From positions 248,001-312,000 of the forward strand of contig NZ_WTYY01000001.1 in the NCBI RefSeq assembly GCF_009827405.1: a DNA stretch of 64,000 nucleotides, written 5' to 3'. Position numbers and translations under genes: made by a program. Below the pieces are notes generated by a model, which saw nothing but the letters and a program-made list of their open reading frames with translations, ran no database searches and had not been told where the DNA came from. The DNA comes from Alteraurantiacibacter aestuarii. GTDB taxonomy: Bacteria; Pseudomonadota; Alphaproteobacteria; Sphingomonadales; Sphingomonadaceae. Position 1 is the stretch's first letter. Every line of letters begins with the position of its first letter. Shown piece after piece: positions 18,452 through 39,748 of this stretch.

Positions 18452-18480
18452 TTGCGCACCATAGTAACGAGCGTTAGCAA
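18452..18480 (+). promoter_or_regulatory. GMC-operon promoter with TAACR-NN-YGTTA operator
   Basis: The perfect palindrome TAACGAGCGTTA (18465-18476) lies inside the likely promoter: TTGCGC at 18452-18457, a 17-bp spacer, then TAGCAA at 18475-18480. The same operator recurs at 28773, 33276 and 38781. A repressor here would block the divergent SnoaL and GMC operons. Confidence 0.6.
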
Positions 18481-18499
18481 GGCGGCAAGGGAGACAGGA

Positions 18500-20161
18500 A
18501 TGGCCGAGGCGCAATTCGATTACATTGTCGTTGGCGGGGGCAGCGCGGGCTGCGTCATGGCCGCGCGGCTGAGCGAGGATGGCAAGAGCAACGTGCTGCT
18601 GCTGGAAGCCGGCGGGCGCGACGATCACCTCTATCTCAAGATGCCGCTGGCCTTCCTGAAAGCCATGCCCGATCCGCGTTTCAACTGGAAATACTGGACC
18701 GAGGAAGAGCCGCATCTGGATGGCCGCCGCATGCCCATGCCGCGCGGAAAGGTGATGGGTGGTTCCGGCTCCATCAACGGCATGTTCGCCATGCGCGGCC
18801 ATCCGGCGGATTATGACCAGTGGGCGCAAATGGGCGCACGCGGCTGGAGCTATGCCGACTGCCTGCCCTATTTCCGTAAGCTGGAAGACAGCTGGCGCGG
18901 CGATGGCGCCTATCACGGCACGGGCGGACCGGTGGCGATCCAGCCCATCGTCAGCCCGCATTTGCTGCATGAAGAAATGATGGCCACGGCCAAGGCGGCT
19001 GGCTTTGCCACCAGCGACGATTTGGCAGGCGCTGTGCCCGAAGGGTTCGCACGCGGTGAGCAGACCGTGGATGCGCGCGGACGCAGGGTCAGCGCGGCCA
19101 CCGCCTATATCAAACCCGCGCTGGGCAGGCGCAATCTGGATGTCCGTTCGGGCGCGCAGGTGCGACGCGTGGTGTTTGAAGGCAAGCGCGCGATTGGCGT
19201 GGAGATCGATTCCCCCGGCGGCCCGCAGCTTGTCCGCGCTGCGCGGGAGGTGGTCCTGTGCGGCGGCACCTATAACTCGCCGCATCTGCTGATGCTGTCG
19301 GGCATCGGGCCTGCCGCCCATTTGAAGGCGCACGGGATCGATGTGCTGCATGACAGCCCCGGCGTGGGCCGCAATCTGCAGGAACATCCCACCGCATCGC
19401 TGGAATGGAATGCGAAGGACAAGACCACCTTCCTCACGCAGTTGCGCTGGGACCGGATCCTGCTCAACTCCGCCAAATGGATGCTGACCGGCAAGGGCAC
19501 GATGGCCAGCCAGGTGAACAGCTGCAACGTGGTGATCCGCACCGCGCCGCATCTGGAGCGGCCCGACCTGCAGATCATGGTCAACCCGATCCGTTTCGAC
19601 GCCGCACCGTGGTTCCCCGGCATCAAGGCCGAGCAGGAGCATGTGTTCTGGGCCGGGCTGGTGCAATTGCATCCGCAGAGCAGGGGCTGGGTGGAGCTGA
19701 AAAGCGCAGACCCGATGCAGGAAGCGGCCATCACGCTCAACATCATGGCCGAGGAGGCCGACCGCGAGCAGATGCGCCGCGCCATCCGCACCGCCCGCAA
19801 GATCTATACCACGCCGCCGATGGGCAATCTGCTGGCGGACGAGCGTGGCCTGAGCGCCGGCAAGGAAAGCGATGAGGAGCTGGACGCGTTCGTGCGCGCC
19901 ACCTGCTATACCGCGCAGCATCCCACCAGCACCTGCGCCATGGGCATGGGTGAGCAATCGGTGGTGGATGAAGCCTGCCGGGTGATCGGGGTGGAAGGCC
20001 TGCGCGTGGTCGATGCCAGCGTCATGCCCACCGTGCCCGGCGGCAATACCAACCTGCCCACCATCATGGTGGCGGAAAAGGCGGCGGACATGATGCGCGG
20101 GCAATCGCTGCCCGCTGCCGAACTGCCGCCCACAAAGCCGGAAGGAAGGGCAGCCGCATGA
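18500..20161 (+). CDS. GMC-family FAD oxidoreductase (choline/aryl-alcohol dehydrogenase type)
   Basis: A 553-residue GMC enzyme. GGGSAGC (about 11-17) is the FAD loop and GSGSINGM the GMC signature 1 region. The C-terminal block holds [11 protein letters not shown] (active-site His) and [14 protein letters not shown] (second catalytic residue and FAD contact). Such enzymes oxidise primary alcohols, in this neighbourhood perhaps lignin-derived side-chain alcohols. The ATG at 18500 is preceded by GGGAG. It leads an operon whose next three genes (SnoaL-like, SDR, DUF3237) overlap or nearly overlap it. Confidence 0.9.
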
Positions 20162-20547
20162 ACCGCACTGCCGGCGAGGCTGCCAATCTGCAACTGGTGC
20201 TGGACATGTTCGCCCATGTCCTCAACCCGATGGATTCATCTGCGGTCGACCGCTTCATTGCGCCCGGCTACATCCAGCACAATCAGGCTGCCGAGCCGGG
20301 GCGGGAGGGGCTGAAGAAGTTCCTCGACATGATCCGCGAGGCCACGCCCGAGGCGGTGCACGATGTGAAGCGCGCCTTTGTGGATGGTGACCATGTGACG
20401 GTGCATTACCATGTGCGCCGCTGGCCGGATGACCTGGGCTGGGCGGTGATGGACATCTTCCGCATCGAAGACGGCATGATCGCCGAACACTGGGACGTGA
20501 TGCAGGATGTTATCGAGGGCGGGCCGAATCCGGCATCCCCCTTCTGA
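20158..20547 (+). CDS. SnoaL-like NTF2-fold protein
   Basis: 129 residues with the COG4922-type pattern [18 protein letters not shown] and the closing [18 protein letters not shown]. Family members bind a small aromatic or polyketide in a cone-shaped pocket. Its ATG overlaps the GMC stop (ATGA), so translation is coupled. It probably acts on the product of the GMC enzyme or of the following SDR. Confidence 0.85.
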
Positions 20548-20557
20548 GGAGAGATTG

Positions 20558-21307
20558 ATGCGTTTCGAAAACAAGATCGTGCTGGTGCTGGGCGGCAACA
20601 GCGGCATGGGGCTGGCCGCTGCGCAGGCATTCGCGGCAGAGGGTGCAAAGGTTCACCTGACCGGCCGCAATCAGGATACGATCGATGCGGCAGTGGCCTC
20701 CATTCCCGGCTCTACCGGCTATGCTTCCGACATTGCCGATGTCGCCGCGACGCAGGATGTTGTGGCCAAGGTCGAAGCTGCCGACGGGCGGATCGATGTG
20801 CTGTATATCAATGCCGGCGTGGGCGGTTTCGCTCCGCTGGAAGCCATCACCGAAGATGACTGGGACCACATCCATTCGATCAATCTGAAAGGCTGCGTAT
20901 TCGCCCTGCAAAAGGCGGTGCGGATCATGGGCAAGGGCGGCTCCATCGTCGTAACCGGCTCCATCGGCGCACATGGCGCGATAGAGGCCAATGGTGCCTA
21001 TGGTGCGGCCAAGGCTGGCCTGGCGATGGCGATGAAGATTTTTGCCAAGGAGCTGGTGCCGCGCGGCATCCGCCTCAACATGGTCAGCCCCGGCCCGATC
21101 GACACCCCGCTGCTCTATCGCAATCCGGGCATGAGCGATGAGCAGATCGAAGGCCTGAAAAAGATGATGATCGACAACATCCCGATGCACCGCATGGGGA
21201 CGAGCGACGAAGTTGCCAAGGCCGTGCTGTTCCTGGCGAGCGAGGACGCCAGCTTCATCACCGCCGCCAATCTTTTCGTCGATGGCGGATTACTGGAGTT
21301 ACGTTGA
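20558..21307 (+). CDS. Short-chain dehydrogenase/reductase
   Basis: 249 residues of classical SDR. GGNSGMG (12-18) is the NAD(P) loop and YINAGVG follows strand 4. The catalytic set is S135, Y148 and K152 (YGAAK), then SPGPIDTPL. The ATG at 20558 follows GAGGAGAG, 10 bp after the SnoaL-like stop. It is the third gene of the GMC operon, expected to oxidise or reduce an alcohol/ketone in the same route. Confidence 0.92.
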   Translation: MRFENKIVLVLGGNSGMGLAAAQAFAAEGAKVHLTGRNQDTIDAAVASIPGSTGYASDIADVAATQDVVAKVEAADGRIDVLYINAGVGGFAPLEAITEDDWDHIHSINLKGCVFALQKAVRIMGKGGSIVVTGSIGAHGAIEANGAYGAAKAGLAMAMKIFAKELVPRGIRLNMVSPGPIDTPLLYRNPGMSDEQIEGLKKMMIDNIPMHRMGTSDEVAKAVLFLASEDASFITAANLFVDGGLLELR

Positions 21308-21837
21308 TGAGCAATTTTTCCGACACCACGCCTTTCGCCAAGCCCTACTCGGAGCTGGACAATCCCCGCCTTGAGCTGGTGATGGAAGTGCGGCTGCAAT
21401 TTCCGGAAGTCTATTCGATGGCGCCTCTTCCCGGCGGCGGTATGCGCACGGCGGTGCTGGTGCAGGGCGGCACGTTTGAAGGGCCGTTGCTGAAGGGCAA
21501 GGCGGTCCCCGGATCGGGCGGCGATTATGCCTATTGGCGCGGTGACGATGTCTCCTGCCTCGATGCGCGATATCTGCTGCAGGAGGACGATGGCACCACC
21601 ATCATGTTGCAGAACCGCGGCTTCCTGTGGGGCCGCAAGCCAGACACTATGGCCCGCCTGCGCGACTGGGCCTTCAACGATGGCGAGCCCGTTCCGCATG
21701 ACGAATATTACCTGCGCAGCCAGACCACCTTCGAATGCGCGGCAGGCAAGCATGACTGGCTGACCAAGCACGTGTTCATCGGCGTGGGCGAGCGCAAGAG
21801 CGACGGCAACCGGTTGCGCTATTACGCGCTGACCTGA
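21307..21837 (+). CDS. DUF3237 family protein
   Basis: 176 residues, a beta-barrel-type small protein. It has the DUF3237 pattern: RLELVMEVRLQF, GGTFEGPLLKGKAVPGSGGDY, RGFLWG and a C-terminal TTFECAAGKHDWLTKHVFIGVGER. The ATG overlaps the SDR stop (TGATG). DUF3237 proteins often accompany aromatic or steroid degradation genes, but no activity is established to my knowledge. Last gene of the GMC operon; no hairpin terminator follows. Confidence 0.85.
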   Translation: MSNFSDTTPFAKPYSELDNPRLELVMEVRLQFPEVYSMAPLPGGGMRTAVLVQGGTFEGPLLKGKAVPGSGGDYAYWRGDDVSCLDARYLLQEDDGTTIMLQNRGFLWGRKPDTMARLRDWAFNDGEPVPHDEYYLRSQTTFECAAGKHDWLTKHVFIGVGERKSDGNRLRYYALT

Positions 21838-21876
21838 GGGCGTTGCGGCCGGGATCGGACTGGGAGGAGATCGCCT

Positions 21877-21928
21877 ACCCGGCCCAAGAACCCGGCCCAA
21901 GAACCCAGCCCGAGAACCCGGCCTAAAA
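21877..21928. repeat. Four tandem 13-bp repeats
   Basis: Four copies of ACCCGGCCCAAGA (later copies with one to three changes) run from 21877 to 21928, between two convergent genes. Copies 1 and 2 are identical. It may act as a boundary or be slippage-prone junk DNA; no coding frame uses it. Confidence 0.85.
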
Positions 21929-21934
21929 ACCGCT

Positions 21935-22495
21935 CTAGAAGCTGAAATCCAGCCGCGGGGTCCAGTTTTCGTACTGGCCTTCGGGCAGGCCGCTTTCGGC
22001 GATGACGACGCGGTGGGTGAACAGCCATTTGCCGTCCACCTTCTGCAACTTGTCATATTCCCGGCCCTGTTCCACCAGCACCGGAGGGGCGCTGATTTCG
22101 GCGTTGCGGATACCGGTCCACAGGAACTGGGCGGTGGCGTGGTCGCCATCCACCCTGATCACCGGATTGGACAGGATCATGTGGAACTGCCCGCCACCGT
22201 TGGAGGCGCTTGTCTCGTCCTCGCCTATGCCTGCATAGATCGCCTCGATCTCCTCGCGGCCATTGGCGACAAGGCCGTTGACGTCGAAGATCGCGTCTTC
22301 GGTGAAGTAATCGCCAAATGCGCTCGCTTCGCCGCCGCCCAGATGGGCGTAATATTCGATCACCATATCCTCAATCGCGACGCGGTCCATCACGGCCTGG
22401 GTTTCGCTGTCGACGTCGGCCGAGACGTCAATGTCGGCGCAGGCGGATAGGGCCAGTGCTGCAATGGCAGTGGCGGTAATGGCATGGAATTTCAT
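21935..22495 (-). CDS. SnoaL-like lipoprotein
   Basis: 186 residues: a lipoprotein signal (MKFHAITATAIAALALSAC, Cys19) followed by an NTF2-fold domain (VAIEDMVIEYYAHLGGGEASAFGDYFTEDAIF ... KVDGKWLFTHRVV). GGAGG precedes the ATG. It is exported and lipid-anchored, unlike most SnoaL-like enzymes. The role is unknown; it may bind or isomerise an aromatic compound in the periplasm. Confidence 0.8.
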   Translation of the reverse strand: MKFHAITATAIAALALSACADIDVSADVDSETQAVMDRVAIEDMVIEYYAHLGGGEASAFGDYFTEDAIFDVNGLVANGREEIEAIYAGIGEDETSASNGGGQFHMILSNPVIRVDGDHATAQFLWTGIRNAEISAPPVLVEQGREYDKLQKVDGKWLFTHRVVIAESGLPEGQYENWTPRLDFSF

Positions 22496-22561
22496 GAAAC
22501 AAGTCCTCCCCGGCGCGGATCATGTCACTGCGCGCAAACAATGCAAGCCAATCCGTCGCGC

Positions 22562-22590
22562 ATTATAACCAAATTGGTGAAAATCAGTAA
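22562..22590 (-). promoter_or_regulatory. Promoter of the SnoaL-like lipoprotein with internal palindrome
   Basis: On the minus strand, TTACTG (22590-22585) and a perfect TATAAT (22567-22562) have 17-bp spacing. The spacer contains the 11-bp palindrome ACCAAATTGGT (22568-22578). It overlaps the last codons of the upstream SDR gene. Confidence 0.5.
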
Positions 22591-23339
22591 ACCCATTTAC
22601 CGGAAACGCCCATCGCGTCCTGCAATTCGGGCGAATAGATCGCAAGTTCCTGCCCGATGAACGGATCGGCGCCTGATGTGCACAGGAAGGCAATCACCTG
22701 CGCGGGATCTTCAGGCGGCAGCATCTTGTCCGCCGGTGGCAGCATTTCCCTGGGCAGGCCGCTGTTCTGCAATCCGGCCTGCATGTCTGTGTCCACGACA
22801 CCCGGCTGGAAACCGAATGTGCGAATGCCGCTGTCGCGATATTCCACGTCAATCGCCCGTGTCGCCATGTTGAGGCCAGCCTTGGTGATGCAATAATTGC
22901 CCATCCGGGGGAAGGCACGCATGGCCAGCCCGGAGGAGATATTGATGATCGTCCCGCCGCCACTTTCCAGCATCCGGGTGATCGCCAGCTGCGCCGTCTG
23001 GATCGCAGCGATCAGGTTGACCTCGATACACTCGGCGATCTCATCGGGCGGTGTTTCATGCAGCGTGGCGAAGCCTCCGCCCAGGGCGGCGTTGTTCACC
23101 AGCACGTCGCAGCCCTCGGCGATGACCGCGGCCATCGCAGCGGTGTCGCGCACGTCGCAGGCGTGGCCGGTCACATTGGCGGGGTGGCCCAGCTGGTCCA
23201 GCGCGCGCTCCACGGCTTGCGCGGTGCGTCCGGTGAAGGCCACCTGCGCCACTTGCTGCGCCAGCAGGCGGACCGTCTCCAGCCCCACGCCGCGCGTCCC
23301 GCCTGTCACCACTATGCGTTTGCCGGTCAGATCGCTCAT
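22584..23339 (-). CDS. Short-chain dehydrogenase/reductase
   Basis: 251 residues, classical SDR: TGGTRGVG (12-19), NNAALGGG, catalytic S135/S136, Y149 and K153 (YCITK), then PGVVDTDM. The ATG at 23339 has GAGGAG upstream; an upstream in-frame start would add an unlikely basic tail. It lies upstream of the SnoaL-like lipoprotein in the same direction, but that gene has its own promoter. Confidence 0.9.
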   Translation of the reverse strand: MSDLTGKRIVVTGGTRGVGLETVRLLAQQVAQVAFTGRTAQAVERALDQLGHPANVTGHACDVRDTAAMAAVIAEGCDVLVNNAALGGGFATLHETPPDEIAECIEVNLIAAIQTAQLAITRMLESGGGTIINISSGLAMRAFPRMGNYCITKAGLNMATRAIDVEYRDSGIRTFGFQPGVVDTDMQAGLQNSGLPREMLPPADKMLPPEDPAQVIAFLCTSGADPFIGQELAIYSPELQDAMGVSGKWVY

Positions 23340-23573
23340 CTGTGTATCTCCTCGCCCATCGGAATACCCATCCGAATACATGGCCGCGCGCCGGGCGACA
23401 ATGCGCCGCGGTGCTGCCAATCCAGCGCCAGCATGCGGCTTATCCACTAGGTAGCTTTACGGCTTGGAAAGCATGCAGTAGATTTCCCCGCCTGCGTCCG
23501 GATGGGGAACGCCGCCAACAGTGCGGGACCGGGGCAGCTTTATAATAAGAATTGTTTTGGGGAGGGAGTTTTC

Positions 23574-24080
23574 ATGTCTGCATATCTCGCACTTGCCTTG
23601 TCTGTCGGTGTTCTGGCCGTACTCGACACCTGGCTGTTCGTTAGCCCGTTGGCGACAACGGCGCTGGCCGGACTCGTCTGGATTTCTTTCATCGCCTGGG
23701 GTTGCCACTTCCATTCCGGCGGCGGAACCAAGGGCACGGCCACCACGCTTGCCTGCATGAGCTTTGGCGCGGTTGTCGGCATGGCGGCAGTCATGGCAGC
23801 AGGCGGCCCGCTGGCTGCTCTGGGCGGTCTGGCGGCACCTGTTGCAGTGGGTGTTGGCGCGGCGGTTATCTGCCTTGCCAGTGCCGTATCCATCCTCTCC
23901 ACAATCCCGGCCAGCGTCTATGGCTTTGCCTCCATTGCCGGCCCGATCCTGTTGCAGGACCGCTCTCCCACAGAGGCGCTGTTCCCGGTTATCGGCGCCA
24001 TCGTGATTGGCGCGGCATTCGGCTATCTGTCCGAAACCTTCGCCAATGCGATGACCAAGAAGGGCGCTGCCGCCGAATAG
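23574..24080 (+). CDS. DUF1097 family inner-membrane protein
   Basis: 168 residues with four to five hydrophobic segments rich in Ala, Gly and Val. It shows the DUF1097 pattern (WISFIAWGCHFHSGGGTKG, then GAVVGM and PASVYGFASIAG). GGGAGGG lies 7 bases upstream of the ATG. It is a single-gene unit ended by a strong terminator. Function is not known for the family. Confidence 0.8.
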   Translation: MSAYLALALSVGVLAVLDTWLFVSPLATTALAGLVWISFIAWGCHFHSGGGTKGTATTLACMSFGAVVGMAAVMAAGGPLAALGGLAAPVAVGVGAAVICLASAVSILSTIPASVYGFASIAGPILLQDRSPTEALFPVIGAIVIGAAFGYLSETFANAMTKKGAAAE

Positions 24081-24103
24081 GCCAGAGCGTCCCCAGGGAC
24101 ATG

Positions 24104-24140
24104 AAAAAGGGCGGGGAGGCATGTGCCTTCCCGCCCTTTT
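24104..24140. terminator. Intrinsic terminator
   Basis: A 13-bp GC-rich stem (from GGGCGGGG, one G-T pair, 2-base loop) is flanked by AAAAA and TTTT, so it is usable from both strands. It separates the DUF1097 gene from the convergent five-gene operon. Confidence 0.85.
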
Positions 24141-24192
24141 CATTGCCCGGCAATGGCCGGCGTATCAGCGCCCGAAGCTTGGTTTTCGAAAC

Positions 24193-27216: not shown

Positions 27217-28701
27217 TTACCGCACCTTGCTGGCATCAAGCCTTGCGCGGCTGACCCATGCGCCGTGGACCTGGCTGCGCAGGGCAAGGCCGGTCCTGAT
27301 CTTGGCAATCGGGCCGTTCTCCACCGCGTCGGCCTCCACCACCCACAGCTCGCTGGAATAATCCGCCGGATTGCCTCCGGGCGGGCCATTGGGAATATCG
27401 ACCACGGTCAGCAGCCAGCCGCCGTGGCCTTCCTGCGAAGAGGGGACATGCGCCGGTTCGCTGATGCCAGCGCCGGGCGGCACAGCCATCATCGTCAGGC
27501 GGCCATTACCCGGTTCGATTCGCAGCAGGGCGTTGAAATTGGCACCCACCGGACCACCCAGCATGGGTGGACCCTGCGCTTCGGGGTTCATGGAGAGATA
27601 CCATGCGCGGTTATACGGACGGCCCTGATCGGCATCGGCAAGACGCGGCAGATCACCGGGAGGGCCAAGCGGGCGCTCCTCAATCTGCGGGTCGGCCTTG
27701 GACATGTCGATGGTCCAGCGGGTCAGCGCACCCTGGATGGACTGCTGATCGCGGTGGATGCCGCCCGCTTCGCGCATGAAGGAAAAGGCCACCGTGTCCG
27801 TCAGGCACAGGTCGATATGCACAAGGTCGCCATCGTCATAGGCGTTGACCTCGTGGAAGCAGGAGACGCCGACCGGCCCCTTGATCCACTGCATGTCCTC
27901 CACCTTGCCATAGCGCGGCATGATGGCGATCCAGCTTTCCAGATCCTGCTGGTGCGCCCAGTGCGCGCCGCCGGCCTTGATCCGGTCCAGATCGGCGGTG
28001 GTCGGGAAGATCGGCCAGATGGCGTATTTCTCGGTAATCACGAAGTCATGGATGGTGGCGATATAGGGCTGCTTGAACCACTGCTCACTCACCAGATTGC
28101 CGTCCTTGTCGGCAATGCCATAGGCGATGTCATCGCTGCACAGGCCGCCTGCCTCGTAACCGAAGAAGAACAACTCGCCCGTCTCACTGTCCACGCGCGG
28201 ATGGGCGGTGAAGGTCTCTGATTTCAGCGCGCCGTAATAATCCCATTTGCCCACTGTCTCCAGCGTGTGCGGGTTGATCTCGTACCCGCGGCCATCCTCC
28301 TTGGTCATGAACAGGCGCCCGGCGTGCCATACAGGCGTGGTGTTGGCGAGCGTGCGGTCCACGCCCTTGACGCTGGGATCATCGGTGAAGGGATTGCGAT
28401 ATTTGCCAAACAGCGCGTGGCGGGCCTTCTTCTCGGCCAGATAGCGTTCCGTCTCGACATATCTGATGGCGAAATCCACCGCGCCATCGGTGAAGGTGAA
28501 AGCGGCGATCATGCCATCGGCATTGAGCGCGATATCATCCTCGAACATCGGCGCATGGGCGTTGTCCGGCACGGCGCGGAAAAAGGCACCCTCGATCTCG
28601 GCGGGGATTTCCCCTTCCACCGCCAGGTTGCGTACTGACATCTCGACGCGGCGCGGCGTATTGGTGCCGATGAAGTGAATTGTCTGCGGAAAGGCGTTCA
28701 T
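27217..28701 (-). CDS. Carotenoid-oxygenase family lignostilbene dioxygenase
   Basis: 494 residues. The four iron ligands are H167, H218, H283 and H479 (AHPRV, IHDFV, FHEVNAYDD, VHGAW). Tyr101, Lys134 and Glu135 coincide with the phenol-binding residues I recall for NOV1/LSD enzymes. This supports cleavage of the central double bond of 4-hydroxystilbenes into two aldehydes. The ATG at 28701 has GGGAGG upstream; an in-frame ATG at 28746 is possible. It is the first gene of a five-gene operon, divergent from a MarR regulator across two kinds of repeat. Confidence 0.88.
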   Translation of the reverse strand: MNAFPQTIHFIGTNTPRRVEMSVRNLAVEGEIPAEIEGAFFRAVPDNAHAPMFEDDIALNADGMIAAFTFTDGAVDFAIRYVETERYLAEKKARHALFGKYRNPFTDDPSVKGVDRTLANTTPVWHAGRLFMTKEDGRGYEINPHTLETVGKWDYYGALKSETFTAHPRVDSETGELFFFGYEAGGLCSDDIAYGIADKDGNLVSEQWFKQPYIATIHDFVITEKYAIWPIFPTTADLDRIKAGGAHWAHQQDLESWIAIMPRYGKVEDMQWIKGPVGVSCFHEVNAYDDGDLVHIDLCLTDTVAFSFMREAGGIHRDQQSIQGALTRWTIDMSKADPQIEERPLGPPGDLPRLADADQGRPYNRAWYLSMNPEAQGPPMLGGPVGANFNALLRIEPGNGRLTMMAVPPGAGISEPAHVPSSQEGHGGWLLTVVDIPNGPPGGNPADYSSELWVVEADAVENGPIAKIRTGLALRSQVHGAWVSRARLDASKVR

Positions 28702-28748: not shown

Positions 28749-28796
28749 ACAACGCTAACTCGTCAACAACGCTAACAGGTGTTACGGTTGGCGCAA
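28749..28796 (-). promoter_or_regulatory. Operator region between dioxygenase operon and marR
   Basis: ACAACGCTAAC occurs twice as a direct repeat (28749-28759 and 28766-28776). A 22-bp inverted repeat at 28768-28789, eight of ten pairs matching, has the core TAACAGGTGTTA (28773-28784). It fits the operator seen at 18465, 33276 and 38781. On the minus strand TTGCGC (28796-28791) and TAGCGT (28774-28769) flank it with 16-bp spacing, so the operator sits in the promoter spacer. Confidence 0.6.
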
Positions 28797-28829: not shown

Positions 28830-29363
28830 GTGCACGACAGCGCGCAGGCAAAGATGGAAGACCGGGTGGCGGCAGGCATGGACAGCAAGGGTGCGCTGCT
28901 GCACCGCTTGCTGAAGCTGACCAACCGGCTGATGGCGCCGTTCTCGACCCATCTGGCGCATCGCTATCGCATCTCCCTCAACGAATTCCGCCTGCTGATG
29001 ACGATCGGCGCGCTGGGACGTACCGCCAGCCATGAAGTGGCGGAGATGACCGGCGTGAACGTGATGAGCGTCAGCCGAGCGGTGGCCACGCTGCAACGCC
29101 ACGGGCGCGTGAAGGTGGAGCGCGATCCGGCCAATCGCCGCCGCAAATGGCTGACCCTGACGACCGAAGGCCAGCACCTGTATGAGGTGATGCGCCCGCA
29201 GAGTGAGAAGGTGGCCGATTATCTCTTTTCCGAAATGGTGGACAGTGACCTGGCCGCGCTGGAAGGCCTGGTCGAACGGCTGATCTCCCGGCTGGAGGCA
29301 CGCGATGACAGCGGCCGATCGGTATTCCTGGAAGCAACCAAGCCTGACGAGGACGAAGCCTGA
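28830..29363 (+). CDS. MarR-family transcriptional regulator
   Basis: About 177 residues. The winged helix covers ISLNEFRLLMTIGALG, ASHEVAEMTGVNVMSVSRAVATLQRHGRVKVERDPANRRRKWLTLT. MarR proteins are usually repressors released by phenolic ligands. The start is uncertain: GTG at 28830 (GGGGGA nearby) or ATG at 28854 or 28878; any of these keeps the operator outside the gene. It diverges from the dioxygenase operon and probably represses it and itself. It may also act on the three similar operators elsewhere in the window. Confidence 0.88.
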   Translation: MHDSAQAKMEDRVAAGMDSKGALLHRLLKLTNRLMAPFSTHLAHRYRISLNEFRLLMTIGALGRTASHEVAEMTGVNVMSVSRAVATLQRHGRVKVERDPANRRRKWLTLTTEGQHLYEVMRPQSEKVADYLFSEMVDSDLAALEGLVERLISRLEARDDSGRSVFLEATKPDEDEA

Positions 29364-29794
29364 TGCATATGGATGAACGCCGCGCGATCGAATGGGACTG
29401 CACCCGCCTGATCCATCAGTATGTGAACCTCAACGATGCGCAGGACTGGCATGCCGTGGCGGCGTTGTACACGCCCGACGCGCGCTTTGCCCGGCCCAGC
29501 AAGCCCGATGAATTCATCGAGGGGCGCGAGGCCATTCTTGCCAGCTTCACCGCACGGCCTCCGCGCGCCCAGCGCCATGTCATCGCCAATACGGTGGTCG
29601 ATGTGGAAGGCCCCGCCACCGCGCGCGCCTTCAGCGTGATCGTGCTGTATATGGGCGATGTGCCCGAAGGCGGCGGCCTGCCGGTGCAGGATGCCAAAAG
29701 CCCGCTGATCGGCACGTTTACCGATCTGATTGTGAACACGCCCGATGGCTGGCGGTTCAAGCAACGCGTGGGCGGGCTGGACTTTCGCCCTTAG
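29363..29794 (+). CDS. SnoaL-like NTF2-fold protein
   Basis: 143 residues with the SnoaL_4 pattern: IEWDCTRLIHQYVNLNDAQDWHAVAALYTPDARFARPS and the closing DGWRFKQRVGGLDFRP. The ATG overlaps the marR stop (TGATG), so it is coupled to the regulator. It sits opposite a lignostilbene dioxygenase, like the NTF2-like gene at 57537, and may supply stilbene substrates. Confidence 0.85.
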   Translation: MHMDERRAIEWDCTRLIHQYVNLNDAQDWHAVAALYTPDARFARPSKPDEFIEGREAILASFTARPPRAQRHVIANTVVDVEGPATARAFSVIVLYMGDVPEGGGLPVQDAKSPLIGTFTDLIVNTPDGWRFKQRVGGLDFRP

Positions 29795-30280: not shown

Positions 30281-30375
30281 AGCTGCGGTGTTGGTGTTGG
30301 GCGGGAAGGGTGGTTGGTTGAAAGGCGGTCATCTATCCAAGAGCAGACATTCGCTCCTACACACACGCCACCCCT

Positions 30376-31080: not shown

Positions 31081-31090
31081 GGCGTGTCTC

Positions 31091-32308: not shown

Positions 32309-32370
32309 CCGGTAAATCTCCCCCACCCGATTCCCGGGCTTGTCCTGCCACGTCTAGTGGGGTGGGCCTT

Positions 32371-33231
32371 TCATTGTCCATCCCACGGCGATGGCATTCG
32401 GTATGGCACGGTCAGAAAGTCGGCTTCCACCTGCTGGATCATACCGTTCCTGATCTTAAAGGCTTCGGCAAGATAATAGGAGTGCGGGCGGCGAACGGGG
32501 CTGACCGCGCGCTCGCCATTGGTCAGCGTATATTCGCCCAGCCTGCCCGAATGATCGATGAAGCCATAGGCCAGCACAATCCCGCGCTCGATATCCACCA
32601 GCGGGAAGCGGCGGGCGCGCAGGTCATCGTCATAGCGATACCAGCCGAGCGCGAACTGCGCCTCGCACCCCATGCGCGCCACCGCCAGCGGGAAGCCTGC
32701 GTTATTGGTGGTTTGCACGCCGTTTTCCACCCGGTTGCAATCGGGATGGAATTTCGTGCGGATGGTACCGTCATTGCGCTCGATCGTCTCGAAATAGCCA
32801 TTGGCGATGCGCACCAGCTCCTCGCGCGTCATGCGCTCGGCTGCCGGGATCACCTCTTCCAGCACCGGCTTGCGCTCATATTTCTGCGGACCGAAGGGAA
32901 AGCCCTCATCCTTGTTGCGGGCGACCACGGTTTCCACACCGGTGATCAGGCCGTCATCGCCCACTTGCAGGCGGATGCAACACGGGTTGAGCGCGTCCGT
33001 CTCCTCGATTGCGGTGAAGACCGCCACCTGCCCGCGCTCGGGATCGGCGAAGCGCAGGTCATAGGGATCGCGCGCGGTGATGGTGTTCCAGCAGCCATCG
33101 CCCGGTGACAGGCGCACGTTGTTCTCAGTGTTGAAGACCTGCGCGGCCAGGGGCGCGCGGCCCACATCGCGCGCAGACAGCGCCGCCAGATAGGCATCGA
33201 GACTTGCATATAATTGATCGCGGGATGCCAA
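32371..33231 (-). CDS. Cytoplasmic two-domain NTF2-like protein, DCxRxENG family (copy D)
   Basis: 286 residues, with no signal peptide, unlike copies A to C. The family blocks are present: PDCNRVENGVQTTN, GCEAQF, LRARRFPLVDIERGIVLAYGFIDHSG and AEAFKIRNGMIQQVEADFLTVPYRMPS, closest to copy B. It starts with TTG at 33231 after GGGGAGAAGG. It diverges from the SDR-PCMH operon across the operator at 33276. Loss of export with the same core suggests that one fold serves both compartments. Activity unknown. Confidence 0.75.
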   Translation of the reverse strand: MASRDQLYASLDAYLAALSARDVGRAPLAAQVFNTENNVRLSPGDGCWNTITARDPYDLRFADPERGQVAVFTAIEETDALNPCCIRLQVGDDGLITGVETVVARNKDEGFPFGPQKYERKPVLEEVIPAAERMTREELVRIANGYFETIERNDGTIRTKFHPDCNRVENGVQTTNNAGFPLAVARMGCEAQFALGWYRYDDDLRARRFPLVDIERGIVLAYGFIDHSGRLGEYTLTNGERAVSPVRRPHSYYLAEAFKIRNGMIQQVEADFLTVPYRMPSPWDGQ

Positions 33232-33275
33232 GACCTTCTCCCCTCGCTTGACTTGAGGCCGTGCTAGCTCAAAAG

Positions 33276-33287
33276 TAACGTCCGTTA
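33276..33287. promoter_or_regulatory. TAACR-NN-YGTTA operator between copy D and SDR-PCMH operons
   Basis: TAACGTCCGTTA is a perfect 5+5 palindrome with a 2-base centre, 45 bp upstream of the copy D start and about 58 bp upstream of the SDR start. It matches the sites at 18465, 28773 and 38781. Confidence 0.6.
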
Positions 33288-33344
33288 AAGTCGCGGTTGA
33301 ATCGTGCGATTGAATCAGGGCCCGAAACGGGGGATGGAGAGGGA

Positions 33345-34109
33345 ATGGATCCGCAAGGCAGGCTGGCCGTCATCACTGGCGGCAATTCCGGATTGGGAGA
33401 AGCCACTGCGCGCGCGCTGCTGGCGCGCGGCGCCAGAGTGGTGAGCCTCGATCTGGGCGGAACAGCGCCTGCGGGGGCGGACTTCATTGCCTGTGATGTT
33501 TCCGATCCGGCGCAGGTGAAAGGCGCAGTGCAGCAGATTGCCGGGCGTCACGGACAGATCCATATCCTTGTGAACAGCGCCGGGATTGGCGGGATGGGCG
33601 CAATTGCCAGCGCCGATGGTCCCGGCGATGTGGCCGCGATCCGCAAGGTCATCGATGTCAATCTGATGGGCGCAATCAATGTCACCGCCGAAGTGGCGCA
33701 CCGCATGATCGGCAATGATCCTGTCGGCCCTGATGATGAGCGCGGCGTGATCATCAACGCCTGCTCCATCGCCAGCTTTGAAGGGCAGGAGGGCATGAGC
33801 GCCTACACCGCCGCCAAGGCTGCGCTTGCGGGCCTGACGCTGGTGTGGACGCGCGACCTTTCCGCCCATCACATCCGCGTGGCGGGCATTGCGCCGGGCT
33901 TCATGGCCACGCCGATGGTGGCCTTCCTGCCCGAAGATTTCGTCGCCGAACTGCTGCAGGGCTGTGAATTTCCCAAGCGCGCGGGGCGGGCAGACGAATT
34001 TGCCTCCACCGCACTTTTCATTATCGAAAATGCCTTGCTCAATGGCGAGGTTATCCGGCTTGATGCCGGGACACGCCCACCTGCCCGCACCGCATGGTCT
34101 GCGTCCTGA
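33345..34109 (+). CDS. Short-chain dehydrogenase (HSD10/3-hydroxyacyl-CoA dehydrogenase-like)
   Basis: 254 residues: TGGNSGLG (11-18), NSAGIGG, catalytic S141, Y154 and K158 (YTAAK), then TRDLSAHHIRVAGIAPGFMATPM. These segments and the overall length resemble type-II 3-hydroxyacyl-CoA/17-beta-HSD10 enzymes. GGAGAGGGA precedes the ATG. It leads an operon with the FAD oxidase and cytochrome c 29 bp downstream, so it may oxidise an aromatic side-chain alcohol rather than an acyl-CoA. Confidence 0.88.
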   Translation: MDPQGRLAVITGGNSGLGEATARALLARGARVVSLDLGGTAPAGADFIACDVSDPAQVKGAVQQIAGRHGQIHILVNSAGIGGMGAIASADGPGDVAAIRKVIDVNLMGAINVTAEVAHRMIGNDPVGPDDERGVIINACSIASFEGQEGMSAYTAAKAALAGLTLVWTRDLSAHHIRVAGIAPGFMATPMVAFLPEDFVAELLQGCEFPKRAGRADEFASTALFIIENALLNGEVIRLDAGTRPPARTAWSAS

Positions 34110-34138
34110 GGTCTGGTGAGCTGAGAAAGTAGGAACTT

Positions 34139-35701
34139 ATGGCTGATATCCCGCTTCCCCCTGATTTTACGCTGCAAAAGCTGGCGCAGGCGCAGCGCGC
34201 CTTCGAAAGCGTGCTGGGTGCCGGCAAGGTGTTCTTCGAGGACCTCGACCGCATTTCCTATCAGGACAAATTCTCGGTCAATGACGAGGCGCATCATGCT
34301 TCGGGCGCGGTGGCGTGTGAAAGCGTCGAGGAAGTGCAGGCGGTGGTGCGCATCGCCAACCAGTACCGCCTGCCGCTCTACCCCATCAGCCGGGGCAAGA
34401 ACCTGGGCTATGGTGGCACCGCGCCGGTGCTGGCAGGCAGCGTGGTGCTGGACCTGTCGCGGATGAAGAAGATCGAGTTCGACGAGGAGCTGGGAACGGT
34501 GATCGTCGAGCCGGGCGTGGGGTTCTATGACCTGTACGACTACATCCAGCGCAACAATCTGCCGTTCTGGCTGTCCACCCCCGGCAACAGCTGGGGATCT
34601 GTCATGGGCAATGCGCTCGATCGCGGCGTGGGCTACACTCCCTATGGCGAGCATACCAAGAACATCTGCGGCCTCGAAGTGGTGCTGCCCGATGGCGATC
34701 TGGTGCGCACGGGCATGGGCGCGTTTTCCAATGCGCCGACATGGCAGGCCTATCCCTTCGGCTTTGGCCCGGGGTGGGACCAGATGTTCGTCCAGTCCAA
34801 CTTTGGCATCGTGACCAAGATGGGCATGTGGCTGATGCCGGAGCCGGAAAGCCTGATGGGCATGGATGTCGAATTCGACAAGCCTGAGGATTTGAAGGTG
34901 ATGGTCGACACCATCGCTCCGCTGCGGCGCGAACGCGTGCTGACGCAGAGCCCCTCCATCGGCAACTGGATGCGCGCGGCGGCCGTGCTCACCCGGCGGA
35001 CCGACTGGACCGATGAGCCAGGGTCCGTTTCGGACGCGGTAATCGATGCCATTCGCAAGCAGTTCAACATCGGCTGGTGGGGCGTTTCGCTGCGCCTGTA
35101 TGGCCGCGAGGACGTGAACAAGGCGGCCTACAAGATCCTGGAAGAGGCGATGGGCAATGCCGGCCCCATGGCGATCAAGCCGACCGTGTGGAAACGCGGC
35201 GAGCCGCTGGAATACACCGGCTGGACCGGCACGCCGATGACCTTCCCGATGCAGAATGTGAACTGGTATGGCGGGCGCGGCGGACACATCGGTTTCAGCC
35301 CGATCATTCCGCAGGATGGCGATGCCGCGCTGGCGCAGTTCCAGCGCACCTATGCCAGGTACCGGGAATTCGGCGTCGACTATCAGGGCAGCTTTGCCTT
35401 TGGCGAGCGGCACCTGACCAATGTCAACGCGATGATCTTCAACAAGGATGATCCCGCCATGATGGCCAAGGTCGATCCGTTCTTCCGCACGCTGGTGGCC
35501 GATGCTAAGGAACAGGGTTACGGCGAATACCGCACGCACCTTGATTACATGGATCTGGTGGCGGGAAGTTATGACTTCAATAACAACGCTTTGCTGCGCC
35601 TGAATGAGAAGGTGAAGAACGCGCTCGATCCCAACGGAATCATCGCGCCGGGCAAGAGCGGCATCTGGCCCAGAGCCTTTGCACAGGAGCGCGGACAATG
35701 A
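34139..35701 (+). CDS. VAO/PCMH-family flavoprotein (p-cresol methylhydroxylase/eugenol hydroxylase type)
   Basis: 520 residues: an FAD_binding_4 domain (YPISRGKNLGYGG, VVEPGVGFYDLYDYI, STPGNSWGSVMGNALDRGVGYTPYG) and a C-terminal cap. His383 in GGHIGFSP lies about where the flavin-linking residue of VAO/EUGO-type enzymes falls (inference). These enzymes hydroxylate or oxidise 4-alkylphenols, eugenol or vanillyl alcohol. The next gene is a cytochrome c, overlapping by 4 bp, as in p-cresol methylhydroxylase and eugenol hydroxylase. Electrons therefore pass to cytochrome, not oxygen. A 4-alkylguaiacol substrate fits the neighbourhood. Confidence 0.88.
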   Translation: MADIPLPPDFTLQKLAQAQRAFESVLGAGKVFFEDLDRISYQDKFSVNDEAHHASGAVACESVEEVQAVVRIANQYRLPLYPISRGKNLGYGGTAPVLAGSVVLDLSRMKKIEFDEELGTVIVEPGVGFYDLYDYIQRNNLPFWLSTPGNSWGSVMGNALDRGVGYTPYGEHTKNICGLEVVLPDGDLVRTGMGAFSNAPTWQAYPFGFGPGWDQMFVQSNFGIVTKMGMWLMPEPESLMGMDVEFDKPEDLKVMVDTIAPLRRERVLTQSPSIGNWMRAAAVLTRRTDWTDEPGSVSDAVIDAIRKQFNIGWWGVSLRLYGREDVNKAAYKILEEAMGNAGPMAIKPTVWKRGEPLEYTGWTGTPMTFPMQNVNWYGGRGGHIGFSPIIPQDGDAALAQFQRTYARYREFGVDYQGSFAFGERHLTNVNAMIFNKDDPAMMAKVDPFFRTLVADAKEQGYGEYRTHLDYMDLVAGSYDFNNNALLRLNEKVKNALDPNGIIAPGKSGIWPRAFAQERGQ

Positions 35702-36096
35702 GAATCCTGACCGCAACATCGTTTGTCGCCGCCTCGCTGGCGCTTTCTGCCTGCTCAGGCGGAGAAGCCGAACAGGCTGCCACAGGCGGCCCGCCGCCGA
35801 TGCCGCAGCCGGTCACCATGGCGCAGCGTCCCGATGCCACCGGGGGTGAGGCTCTGTATGTCGAATTTTGCGCCATGTGCCACGCGCCCAACGGCATGGG
35901 CACCGGGCTGATCGCGCGCCGCGCCGATGTTTCCCTGCTGGAGGAGCGTGACGATCTAACGGTGGAACTGGTGGTGCTGTCTGCCCGCAACGGCATTGGC
36001 AACATGCCCGCCATTCCGCGCGGAGAAGTGTCGGACGAACAATTGCAGCAGATCGCCGAATATCTCGCCGCCGGACCGCATGGAGGGGCACAATGA
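35698..36096 (+). CDS. Cytochrome c lipoprotein, partner of the PCMH-type flavoprotein
   Basis: 132 residues: a lipoprotein signal with LSAC (Cys19), a Pro/Gln linker, haem motif C58-A-M-C61-H62 and likely axial Met103 (GNMPAIP) in a class I cytochrome c fold. The start overlaps the flavoprotein stop (ATGA). It accepts electrons from the flavoprotein. Free PCMH cytochromes are soluble; the lipid anchor here is unusual and would tether the complex to a membrane. Confidence 0.9.
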   Translation: MRILTATSFVAASLALSACSGGEAEQAATGGPPPMPQPVTMAQRPDATGGEALYVEFCAMCHAPNGMGTGLIARRADVSLLEERDDLTVELVVLSARNGIGNMPAIPRGEVSDEQLQQIAEYLAAGPHGGAQ

Positions 36097-36623
36097 AAAC
36101 CACCCGCCGCAACATGCTGCTGGGCGCGCTGGCTGTCCCCACAGTGGCCGGGCTGGCGCGCTGGCGCTGGCAATATGGCGCGCACAGCGGTCTGGTCCAT
36201 GATCCGTCATTGGATGCAGGCCAACGCTTTGCGGCGGCTGGCCGCGCGGCGGGCACGTCATCGCGCGCCATCGAGGGCGATACGATCCGTTTCGCGCAGG
36301 AACTGGTCGCCAGCCGGCCTGCCCTGATCGCCGGCGTATCGCGCCATGCCGATGCGCTGATGATCGGCGAAGTGGCACTGGAAGCAGGCTATACGCTGGC
36401 CGCAGAGATTCGCGGACAGTCTGAAGGCTGCGAGTGCTTCACGCATGATTCCGCCTGGCTACCGCTCGCCCGCATGGCGGTGGGCGCAAGGCATGACTGG
36501 GCGGAGCGGTTTGCCGGCTGGGCGGCCAGGCCCGATGGCACCGCCGAGGCGATGTCCATCGCTGCCCGTCGCCAGCCCGATCGCGAGCTGGCACTGGGCT
36601 GGCTGCTGGTGCCGCGCGGCTAG
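36093..36623 (+). CDS. Tat-signal protein of unknown function in the PCMH operon
   Basis: 176 residues beginning with a twin-arginine signal (TTRRNMLLGALAVPTVAG). The mature part has conserved-looking HADALMIGEVALEAGYTL and GCECFTHDSAW segments. The start overlaps the cytochrome stop by 4 bp, so synthesis is coupled. No family was recognised. Being third after flavoprotein and cytochrome suggests an assembly factor or extra subunit. Cys-Glu-Cys could bind a metal. Confidence 0.6.
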   Translation: MKTTRRNMLLGALAVPTVAGLARWRWQYGAHSGLVHDPSLDAGQRFAAAGRAAGTSSRAIEGDTIRFAQELVASRPALIAGVSRHADALMIGEVALEAGYTLAAEIRGQSEGCECFTHDSAWLPLARMAVGARHDWAERFAGWAARPDGTAEAMSIAARRQPDRELALGWLLVPRG

Positions 36624-36644
36624 GGCGCAGTTGGGGCGCGGTTC

Positions 36645-38213
36645 CTAACTTACCTCGCAGGTAAAACTGCTGGCCACGGCGGTGTCGCCCGTCCCGTCAT
36701 ATTTCGCCACCATCGGATAGGGGCACAGCGGGCGTTCCATCGGCGCGCGCGGGGGCGGCGGAGGTCCGCCAAAACCGCCGCCAGCCTGCACTGGCCGCGT
36801 GGCGATGATGCGATTGGGCGCGCGTCCGCTTGTGGCCCATGCGTCGATCGTTCCCAGCGTATCGAAATCGCTCGGGCCGTCCCCGCCAGAGCAGTGATCC
36901 ATGCCCGGCGCCATGAACAGCCGCGTCTGGCTTTGTGCCACGCTGGCGGGCAGCGAATTATACATGCCGTGATAGAAGGCCAGCGTGTTGGTTGCCGGGA
37001 TCAGCCCGTCGGACCAGCCGTGGCTCATCAGCAATTTGCCGCCGCGCGCGAAGAAGGCGGTCAGCCCGTCTGACGGCACGTTGAGCATCTCGGCACCAAA
37101 GCTGCGCGCATCGTTCATGTAGTCGCGATAGTCGGTTTCCTGCCAGTTCCAGCCTGTGCGCCCGGCATAGGCCAGGTCCCGGAAATAGCTCATGGCGACG
37201 GGGAAGGGCTCTGCCCCCATGGTGAGCGCCACCATCTGCCCTTCGGAGCCAACCGGCCACCCGGGCAGGAGGTGCGAGCCATCGGCAGCGCGTGTGCCGC
37301 CATAGATGTTCTGCATCGTCAGCACCTGTCCCGATGACAGGCAGCCTTCGGTCTGGCCGGGCGCGCATTGCAGGCTGGAGGGCTGGAAGTTGCATTGCAG
37401 CGGGCGGCTGATCACACCGTCTGCCACACCGTCCTGTGCATCGCACTGGGCGATCGCGGCGGCATGCACCAGGCCCAGTTGCTGCGGCCCAAGCTGCACG
37501 CCAAAGCGTTGCGGCTGCCAGCCCTGCCACATCGACTGGGTCATCAGGTCGGTCATCGGATTGGCCGGAGCCATGGCCGAAATCGCATCAAAATCATCAG
37601 GATAGCGGTGTGCCGCCATCAGGCCCTGCCGTCCGCCGGTGGAACAGCTGTTCCAGAAGGACAGCTCCGGCCCGCGGCCATAGAAGGCCTCAACCGCCGC
37701 CTTGGCCGCCACCGTGGTGACATGCACCGCGCGGTAGCCGAAATCGACCAGCTTTTCCGGGTGGCCGATGGCCCATTCAGCGGTCATCCCGCTGCCGGTA
37801 TGGCCGGTGTCGGTTGCTGCCGTGGCATAGTTGCGGCTGAGTGACCGGCCCATCTCGGCATAGGAGATCGATCCTGCCCAGATGCCATTGCCAATGCCGA
37901 CATATTTGCCGTTCCAGCCTTCCATCGGCAGCCAGATCTCGGTCTTGATGTCCGAATCGCTGCTGGGGGTCAGAGTGACCTGAACGCGGCAGAAGGAGGG
38001 CACATCGGCAAAGGGCGATGCAGCCACGCCCGGCGGCGGACCAAAGCCGCTGGCGGGTGCCTCGAACCCGCCAGCGGCCACGACGGCAGCCGATGTGACG
38101 CGGCCATTTTCCAGATCAAGCGAGAGCATATCCTCGCACGCGGCCTGTGCCGGTGCGGCGATAGCCAGCGCCGCCAGCGATGCCGTGGCGGCGAATGCGG
38201 TCTTCAAATTCAT
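36645..38213 (-). CDS. Tannase/feruloyl esterase family protein
   Basis: 522 residues: signal peptide (MNLKTAFAATASLAALAIAAPAQA), nucleophile S191 in CSTGGRQG, acid in HGWSDGLIPA and base in DHCSGG. Flanking cysteines (C190 and the Cys after the His) give the CS-D-HC arrangement of the family. It hydrolyses esters of hydroxycinnamic or gallic acids outside the cytoplasm. GAGGGG precedes the ATG at 38213. It converges with the Tat-signal gene. Feruloyl- or galloyl-ester specificity cannot be told. Confidence 0.92.
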   Translation of the reverse strand: MNLKTAFAATASLAALAIAAPAQAACEDMLSLDLENGRVTSAAVVAAGGFEAPASGFGPPPGVAASPFADVPSFCRVQVTLTPSSDSDIKTEIWLPMEGWNGKYVGIGNGIWAGSISYAEMGRSLSRNYATAATDTGHTGSGMTAEWAIGHPEKLVDFGYRAVHVTTVAAKAAVEAFYGRGPELSFWNSCSTGGRQGLMAAHRYPDDFDAISAMAPANPMTDLMTQSMWQGWQPQRFGVQLGPQQLGLVHAAAIAQCDAQDGVADGVISRPLQCNFQPSSLQCAPGQTEGCLSSGQVLTMQNIYGGTRAADGSHLLPGWPVGSEGQMVALTMGAEPFPVAMSYFRDLAYAGRTGWNWQETDYRDYMNDARSFGAEMLNVPSDGLTAFFARGGKLLMSHGWSDGLIPATNTLAFYHGMYNSLPASVAQSQTRLFMAPGMDHCSGGDGPSDFDTLGTIDAWATSGRAPNRIIATRPVQAGGGFGGPPPPPRAPMERPLCPYPMVAKYDGTGDTAVASSFTCEVS

Positions 38214-38251
38214 GGTCGTTCCCCTCAAACCCCGATGCAGATATTCTTAGC

Positions 38252-38749
38252 TCACTTGCGGATGATCAGCGAGTCCGGTCGCTTGCGCGGCTTCCACTCG
38301 CCGTGGCCGGGGAAGCGTTGTAGTACCTCGCCATCCCACAGCCGTACGATGCGCCGGGCAAAGCGCCATTGGCCATCCGCGCATTTGACCGCATGGTCAT
38401 CATACCAGCCGCAGAAGCGCAGTTCATAAGGCGGTTCGCCGTGGCATTCGGTCACGAAGGCAAAGCTCTTCAGCTTCACGCTGCCATCGTCCTGCGGGAA
38501 ATACTTCACCTGCGTGACGTGATGCTGGCGGCCGGGGAAACCAGGGGCATTGGCATAATGCTTCATCAGGCCGCGAATGCCGTCATGCCCTTCCCAGATA
38601 TCGGGATCTTCGAACACTTCCTCGCTCATCAGGCAGTCAGGCGTGAAGCAGGCGACCAGCCCTTCGGTATCGCCTGTATCCAGCGCCCAGCTGTAGTCCG
38701 CGATCAGGTCCTGCAAAGCGAGGCGGTCCTCGACAGTCAATTTCGGCAC
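38252..38749 (-). CDS. SnoaL-like NTF2-fold protein, GTG start
   Basis: 165 residues: VPKLTVEDRLALQDLIADYSWALDTGDTEGLVACFTPDCLM, HHVTQVKYF and ELRFCGWYDDHAVKCADGQWRFARRIV. The frame stays open upstream, but the GTG at 38749 has GGGAGAGAG 5 bases before it and no ATG fits. It is divergent from the NmrA-PQQ-ALDH operon across an operator. Size and pattern suit the ring-hydroxylating-dioxygenase beta-subunit or NTF2-lyase type. Confidence 0.82.
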   Translation of the reverse strand: MPKLTVEDRLALQDLIADYSWALDTGDTEGLVACFTPDCLMSEEVFEDPDIWEGHDGIRGLMKHYANAPGFPGRQHHVTQVKYFPQDDGSVKLKSFAFVTECHGEPPYELRFCGWYDDHAVKCADGQWRFARRIVRLWDGEVLQRFPGHGEWKPRKRPDSLIIRK

Positions 38750-38768
38750 GTAATCTCTCTCCCGATTG

Positions 38769-38796
38769 TTGCCACAACCGTAACACTCGTTATGAT
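38769..38796 (+). promoter_or_regulatory. Promoter with TAACR-NN-YGTTA operator for the NmrA-PQQ-ALDH operon
   Basis: TTGCCA (38769-38774) and TATGAT (38791-38796) are 16 bp apart. TAACACTCGTTA (38781-38792) fills the spacer and the start of the -10. The run CAACCGTAACAC is shared with the minus strand of the dioxygenase promoter at 28.8 kb. Confidence 0.62.
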
Positions 38797-39737: not shown

Positions 39738-39748
39738 TCGGGGCTGGC

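Follow-up and report, generated by a model that had tools for sequence, protein, structure and literature searches.

A palindrome conserved at marR loci of sphingomonads is the predicted operator of a MarR-type repressor of divergent lignin-dimer-type genes

A 12-bp palindrome, TAACRNNYGTTA, occurs in a 64-kb stretch of the Alteraurantiacibacter aestuarii genome (the whole stretch analyzed, hereafter called the window), and it is very probably the operator of the MarR-family protein encoded at 28830-29363, which would repress divergent genes of the lignin-dimer type as well as its own gene. The sites, their conservation, their placement and their co-occurrence with marR were established computationally; binding, repression, the inducer and the substrate are what we infer. 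Taken together, the results describe a real, conserved regulon with an unusually symmetric promoter design, in which the action of the repressor is predicted.

Four copies of the palindrome in the window

The first-pass annotation of the window had described four copies of the 12-bp pattern, each between divergent genes. Both claims were confirmed. Exact matches to TAACRNNYGTTA were found at 18465, 28773, 33276 and 38781, while the chance expectation for the window is a mean of 0.01, and none of 100 dinucleotide shuffles reached four. No further copy was found in the window with one mismatch, or when the purine (R) and the pyrimidine (Y) of the pattern were freed (TAACNNNNGTTA). The assembly of the species (2.24 Mb, 69.7% complete) contains nine TAACNNNNGTTA sequences, seven of them of the R..Y form, and thus three R..Y sites lie outside the window. 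According to our gene calls, which were made with a simple codon-usage script of our own and not with a published gene finder, all four sites of the window are flanked by divergent pairs: 18039-18434(-)/18500(+), 27217-28701(-)/28830(+), 32371-33231(-)/33345(+) and 38252-38749(-)/38823(+). The sequence CAACCG directly before TAACAC, noted earlier as common to the sites at 28773 (minus strand) and 38781 (plus strand), is present at both. The four operators are:

18465-18476, no strand: operator 1, TAACGAGCGTTA, between an NTF2-like gene (minus) and the GMC operon (plus)
28773-28784, no strand: operator 2, TAACAGGTGTTA, between the lignostilbene dioxygenase gene (minus) and marR (plus); predicted autoregulatory site
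33276-33287, no strand: operator 3, TAACGTCCGTTA, between the double-NTF2-like gene (minus) and the operon for a short-chain dehydrogenase/reductase (SDR), a PCMH-type flavoprotein and a cytochrome (plus); no clear -35 element
38781-38792, no strand: operator 4, TAACACTCGTTA, between a SnoaL_4 gene (minus) and the operon for an NmrA-family protein, a pyrroloquinoline quinone (PQQ) dehydrogenase and an aldehyde dehydrogenase (ALDH) (plus)

Conservation of the palindrome at marR loci

When an alignment of 18 MarR orthologs was used to search the genome collection, 66 loci with a total of 1.29 Mb were retrieved, which come from Alteraurantiacibacter, Aurantiacibacter, Croceibacterium, Novosphingobium, Sphingobium and others. 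They contain 198 TAACNNNNGTTA sequences, at least one in every locus. All 198 sites retained R (position 5) and Y (position 8), with the middle bases varying, and the conservation at orthologous promoters on which the proposed regulon depended was thus observed. When the window was included, 197 of 202 sites turned out to be intergenic in DNA that is 86% coding, and some of the five sites inside genes may be gene miscalls. Start codons were present within 350 bp on both sides of 161 of the 202 sites, on one side of 32 and on neither side of 9. The most common target clusters were the 18039-type NTF2-like gene (39), marR (38), dioxygenases (36), the gene for a 286-amino-acid protein (32) and the SnoaL gene at 20158 (32).

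Sites outside the cluster, in the own genome and in three relatives, also have conserved neighbors, which we count in favor of an operator function. In four species, the neighbor is a beta-lactamase-fold gene (77-90% identical); in three, the site precedes an aldehyde dehydrogenase gene (87-90% identical). Some other sites outside the cluster in these four genomes had no conserved neighbor.

The palindrome adjoins the beta-lactamase-fold gene at L127 2292, L113 2281, L116 2265 and L122 2238, and in L127 and L113 its other neighbor encodes an 85%-identical flavin adenine dinucleotide (FAD) protein. At L126 2229, L112 2264 and L121 2256, it is located between the genes for a PQQ dehydrogenase and a 504-amino-acid aldehyde dehydrogenase, far from the main cluster.

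The MarR protein and the sites upstream of its gene

The MarR protein of the window matches Pfam PF01047 with 34.5 bits (cut-off 24.6). Its monomer model (predicted local distance difference test, pLDDT, 88) is a winged helix and comprises five helices, a wing of two strands and additional helices. The helix at residues 78-90 has 7 of 13 residues invariant across the 18 orthologs of the alignment, which were taken from 23 matches (L013, L014, L017, L022 and L026 were left out).

In 21 of the 23 MarR loci of the genus search, the window's own included, an exact site is located 53-143 bp upstream of the match. The nearest site in L031 is 582 bp away, and L029 has only TAACGTTTGATA, with one mismatch. 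Two MarR relatives of 37-38% identity (L033 and L034) were kept out of the 23 loci; no site was found in their 3.4-kb loci, which we count in favor of MarR as the regulator. A site between -260 and +60 relative to the MarR match was found in 39 of the 66 loci. By gene calls, the site is directly upstream of marR in 37 loci and upstream of a run of genes leading into marR in 18, while the remaining 11 showed neither arrangement or marR was uncalled. Seven of these 11 loci were rechecked, and five had a one-mismatch copy 60-141 bp upstream. Autoregulation of marR through operator 2 is therefore predicted.

Co-occurrence of the palindrome with marR

In the genus, 37 genomes were sampled, including that of A. 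aestuarii, and a MarR ortholog was called at E <= 1e-15. The 22 genomes with MarR contain 3-16 sites (mean 10.0). The 15 genomes without MarR have a mean of 0.8; 14 of them have 0-1 sites, and one, G032, has eight. The permuted palindrome ATACRNNYGTAT did not differ between the two groups (1.7 with MarR versus 2.4 without, p = 0.12); the Mann-Whitney p-values treat related species as independent, overstate the certainty and are only indicative. In the family, 199 genomes were drawn and MarR was called at E <= 1e-30; the results were given by row for 44 genomes, and the other 155 were stated to have no match. Here, 24 genomes with MarR contain 4-13 sites, and the 175 genomes without it have a median of one and a maximum of seven. 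Elsewhere in the order, some families have many copies of both the pattern and the permuted control without having MarR, e.g., 22 and 22 in G052.

In Sphingobium sp. SYK-6, the genome contains five exact sites, at 3003783, 3005407, 3006927, 3013313 and 3021195, and all of them are found within 3003783-3021206, i.e., in 17.4 kb around marR at 3005661.

In summary, the frequency of the pattern is not that of chance, because it tracks marR across genomes and its permuted version does not. This tracking and the conservation at 66 loci support the regulon that had been proposed from the window alone. The marR gene had been named as the best candidate for its regulator, and this proposal gains support from the arrangement in SYK-6 and from the sites that precede marR or the operon containing it, with binding as a prediction.

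Promoter architecture around the palindrome

Three of the four sites had been described as lying in the spacer of a visible promoter, and -35 and -10 elements are indeed readable at 18465 (minus), 28773 (minus) and 38781 (plus):

18461-18466, minus strand: -10-like TACTAT, which includes the terminal TA of operator 1
18483-18488, minus strand: -35-like TTGCCG, 16-bp spacer
28769-28774, minus strand: -10-like TAGCGT at operator 2, towards the dioxygenase gene
28791-28796, minus strand: -35-like TTGCGC, 16-bp spacer
38791-38796, plus strand: -10-like TATGAT at operator 4
38769-38774, plus strand: -35-like TTGCCA, 16-bp spacer

A weaker -35/-10 pair is present on the plus strand at 18465. At 33276, a good -35 element was not found.

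The flanks were profiled for 222 sites, i.e., those of the 66 loci, of the window and of 20 stretches from three relatives and the own genome. The profile is ANNNTAACRNNYGTTANNNT, and 355 of the 444 flanks have a T four bases outside the site. The terminal TA of the palindrome and this T form TANNNT, a -10-like hexamer, on each strand. In 102 of 210 non-redundant flanks (105 sites), a TTG precedes TANNNT by 16 or 17 bp, compared with 0-14 flanks at each other spacing counted. It is present on at least one side of 68 of the 105 sites, and on both sides of 34. The spacing of the TTG and the TANNNT place the operator inside the spacer of two outward promoters, and its overlap with core promoter elements was thus found for predicted elements. 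As the operator would lie between -35 and -10 and its terminal TAs would start both -10 elements, one dimer could close both promoters.

We consider it possible, with slightly less than even confidence, that the palindrome and its flanks form a self-contained, mirror-symmetric cassette of about 40 bp. The palindrome would be the operator and at the same time the source of two interlocked, outward -10 elements, with the -35 elements 16-17 bp behind them; RNA polymerase would take one orientation at a time, and one dimer would close both. Such a cassette would stand between many divergent gene pairs across the sphingomonads, and the gain of this one short element could recruit a gene pair into the regulon for lignin dimers.

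The -10-like ends of the palindrome and the TTG 16-17 bp upstream could also mean that it is mainly a promoter signal or another structural signal with symmetric -10 elements, and not an operator. This is extremely improbable, because a general promoter signal would not track marR, and because R and Y are kept throughout the 198 sites, which is more than a -10 element requires.

Alternative regulators and predicted mechanism

Several observations weigh against MarR as the repressor that acts at the palindrome. In two of the 66 loci (L090 and L100), no site was found, even at two mismatches, in the interval that starts 300 bp before the marR match and ends 60 bp inside it. Genome G036 has MarR, yet only three sites, and G032 has eight sites and no MarR match. 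Ten stretches around the sites of these two genomes contained no piece of MarR beyond G036's own. With about 340 contigs, the G032 assembly is 86% complete; two of the eight sites lie at most about 300 bp from a contig start, which makes a lost marR plausible there. Of the family genomes without MarR, 18 of 175 hold 4-7 sites, and thus the pattern arises otherwise in some genomes. In addition, the T four bases beyond the site had been expected to be a pure promoter base, which was not borne out at 31 one-sided sites: it is present on the gene side of 21 and on the gene-less side of 26 (p = 0.24). As it is at least as common on the gene-less side, this base is not solely a promoter signal and may be contacted by a protein; we read it as serving both the protein and the promoter. 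The excess of TTG on the gene side of the same sites (0.52 versus 0.32) was not significant (p = 0.20).

The family genomes that have at least four sites and no MarR are compatible with an unlinked regulator, e.g., of the TetR type, that is encoded outside the cluster and binds the sites, with marR merely a member of the regulon; moreover, co-occurrence alone is linkage and not binding. We regard this as quite improbable, since the sites are nearly absent from the genus genomes without MarR and are confined to the neighborhood of marR in SYK-6.

The window also encodes an IclR-family regulator (13996-14748), which was absent from the first-pass annotation. It is located in the same cluster, downstream of site 1, and it could be the protein that regulates through the palindrome, with MarR only a target. 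A further point that counts for IclR and against MarR is that IclR is present in all 22 genus genomes with MarR and is almost as well correlated with the sites; it is also present in G032. However, G026 has an IclR ortholog (E 6e-110), but neither a site nor MarR. The best match to IclR in SYK-6 (52% identity) was found at 2690988, which leaves 312 kb to the closest of the five sites, all of them grouped around marR. Furthermore, most of the 66 loci have a site before marR or before its operon, and the IclR operators listed in the available text of PMC13273656 are of other types. Regulation by IclR is thus improbable; G026 and the distances in SYK-6 favor MarR clearly, albeit not finally.

With MarR as the repressor, a dimer would occupy the palindrome in the absence of the inducer and would block RNA polymerase by steric hindrance. 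A single dimer would thus silence a divergent pair as a whole, which at one site includes marR. The inducer would be aromatic, probably a dimeric fragment of lignin or of a lignan, or a compound formed from it; it would release the dimer and thereby open the whole set, i.e., the genes for GMC/DUF3237, the PCMH flavocytochrome, the lignostilbene dioxygenase, PQQ dehydrogenase/ALDH and the NTF2-like proteins. The genes at the three further sites of the own genome would join the same set.

Genes beside the sites

The genes of the predicted regulon and its neighborhood are:

13996-14748, minus strand: IclR-family regulator (domain search), rival regulator or part of the site-1 run; closes the minus-strand genes below operator 1
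18039-18434, minus strand: SnoaL_2 (NTF2-like) gene (Pfam), first of the minus-strand run reaching the IclR gene
18500-20161, plus strand: GMC oxidoreductase, the family of PinY (domain search)
20158-20547, plus strand: SnoaL gene in the GMC operon (domain search)
20558-21307, plus strand: SDR in the GMC operon (domain search)
21307-21837, plus strand: DUF3237 protein, the domain of the PinX decarboxylase (domain search)
27217-28701, minus strand: lignostilbene dioxygenase, RPE65 family (NCBIfam NF053780.1, Pfam RPE65)
28830-29363, plus strand: MarR-family regulator, predicted repressor (Pfam MarR); GTG start, in-frame ATG at 28854 as an alternative
29363-29794, plus strand: SnoaL_4 (NTF2-like) gene after marR (Pfam)
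32371-33231, minus strand: 286-amino-acid double NTF2-like protein (AlphaFold2 model and Foldseek)
33345-34109, plus strand: SDR (Pfam)
34139-35701, plus strand: PCMH-type FAD flavoprotein (FAD_binding_4, FAD-oxidase_C), likely p-cresol dehydrogenase-like, the kind of PinW
35698-36096, plus strand: cytochrome c partner, the kind of PinV (domain search)
38252-38749, minus strand: SnoaL_4 gene (Pfam)
38823-39737, plus strand: NmrA/YtfG-like oxidoreductase (domain and sequence search)
39734-41950, plus strand: PQQ dehydrogenase with a cytochrome domain (domain search)
41987-43456, plus strand: aldehyde dehydrogenase (domain search)

The earlier assignment of GMC, lignostilbene dioxygenase, SDR-PCMH-cytochrome and NmrA-PQQ-ALDH genes to one side of the sites was matched by Pfam and NCBIfam families. 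The dioxygenase passes the curated model NF053780.1 with 871.6 bits (cut-off 650). NTF2-like genes had been proposed next to three sites and after marR at the fourth. SnoaL families were found at 18039 and 38252, and SnoaL_4 after marR; together with the Foldseek matches, the claim fits all four sites, site 3 by fold only. The 286-amino-acid protein at site 3 has no Pfam family at E 0.001. Its AlphaFold2 model (pLDDT 92.2) was computed from an alignment of 31 sequences, itself included, out of 38 cluster members. A Foldseek search with this model retrieved mainly NTF2-fold proteins, including the double-domain Lsd19 and ketosteroid isomerases. Among the 50 matches listed, the whole-chain TM-scores were low (0.25-0.33 of the query), and single-domain scores were 0.5-0.6 of the target. 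PDB sequence searches with three NTF2-like proteins yielded only weak relatives. A family of about 290 amino acids without a Pfam match, for which the model suggests a double NTF2-like fold, has two paralogs in the window (32371-33231 and 17025-17972) and one member in the SYK-6 region.

Three other features of the window are recorded here. A gene of the tannase/feruloyl esterase family (36645-38213) lies within the regulon cluster. A cobalamin-independent methionine-synthase-like protein is encoded at 14749-15873, adjoining the IclR gene in the run below operator 1. A second set of genes at 45292-57455 (PQQ dehydrogenase, SnoaL, TonB receptor, ALDH, alcohol dehydrogenase, esterases and a second RPE65 dioxygenase) has no copy of the palindrome.

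Relation to known systems

Relatives of many window proteins are encoded in a 35-kb region of SYK-6, i.e., of the flavoprotein (72%), the cytochrome (59%), DUF3237 (68%), MarR (61%), the aldehyde dehydrogenase (70%), the 286-amino-acid protein (61%), the dioxygenase (66%), SnoaL_4 (73%) and GMC (37%). From their order, we infer that the adjacent dioxygenase and GMC genes of SYK-6 are lsdF (SLG_27970) and pinY (SLG_27980), which have consecutive tags in Table 1 of PMC12997858. By the same tag order, the dehydrogenase gene may be bzaA (SLG_27910).

Repressors of the MarR family that control several aromatic-catabolic targets together with their own gene are already known, and DesR of Sphingobium sp. 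SYK-6, the MarR-type repressor of vanillate and syringate genes, is an example (PMC6888825). Like the predicted MarR regulon, DesR involves several scattered aromatic-catabolic promoters, its own gene and inverted repeats, and one DesR operator overlaps a -35 element. In contrast, the DesR operator is GTTTGTGTMACATAC (PMC6888825), which differs in sequence from TAACRNNYGTTA. By inferred tag order, the DesR gene SLG_12870 is at a different locus from the SYK-6 marR at 3.006 Mb.

The pinoresinol pathway PinZYXWVU of Novosphingobium rhizosphaerae LY comprises the GMC protein PinY, the DUF3237 protein PinX, the p-cresol-dehydrogenase-like pair PinWV and the lignostilbene-dioxygenase relative PinU (PMC12607616). 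At the family level, GMC, DUF3237, flavocytochrome and lignostilbene dioxygenase are found together at three of the four window sites. The available text of PMC12607616 describes no regulator for the pathway. A PinZ identity was considered for the NmrA-family gene beside site 4 and found no support; in a sequence search without PinZ as a query, it resembled YtfG and triphenylmethane reductase, and no PinZ-like reductase was recognised among the cluster genes in this way. Table 1 of PMC12997858 lists no PinW homolog for SYK-6, yet the 72% flavoprotein relative is encoded there, and thus the window flavoprotein probably belongs to another subfamily and is not a PinW ortholog. In the beta-1 and beta-5 routes, the NTF2-like gamma-formaldehyde lyases LdpA/PcfL act with lignostilbene dioxygenases (PMC11323797, PMC12997858), and a pairing of these enzymes is also seen in the window, compared at the family level. 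As the enzyme families match known dimer routes, the substrate is likely to be a dimer of the lignin or lignan type that gives rise to a stilbene.

Bidirectional promoters of Escherichia coli have two starts around or within one shared -10 element, most often 18 bp apart (PMC12825309). They resemble the proposed cassette in being symmetric DNA that RNA polymerase can read either way. In the cassette, however, two separate -10 hexamers would flank an 8-bp core, and the starts would be about 33 bp apart if 7 bp from -10 to start are assumed.

In the literature searched, in the parts available, neither this operator nor a regulator for this cluster was found; a 2025 Green Chemistry paper on a SYK-6 lignin-dimer repressor, cited for beta-O-4 (guaiacylglycerol-beta-guaiacyl ether, GGE) regulation, may overlap.

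Significance

The sphingomonad pathways for carbon-carbon linked lignin and lignan dimers are now being mapped enzyme by enzyme. If the proposed regulon is true, any gene controlled through TAACRNNYGTTA would become a candidate for dimer catabolism wherever a sphingomonad genome has this marR. Among the candidates would be NTF2-like, DUF3237 and dehydrogenase genes that are still uncharacterised, as well as the presumed lsdF and pinY of SYK-6. MarR itself could be considered as the sensing protein in a biosensor for lignin dimers, and the two-way promoter allows the control of two interlocked promoters by a single dimer to be tested.

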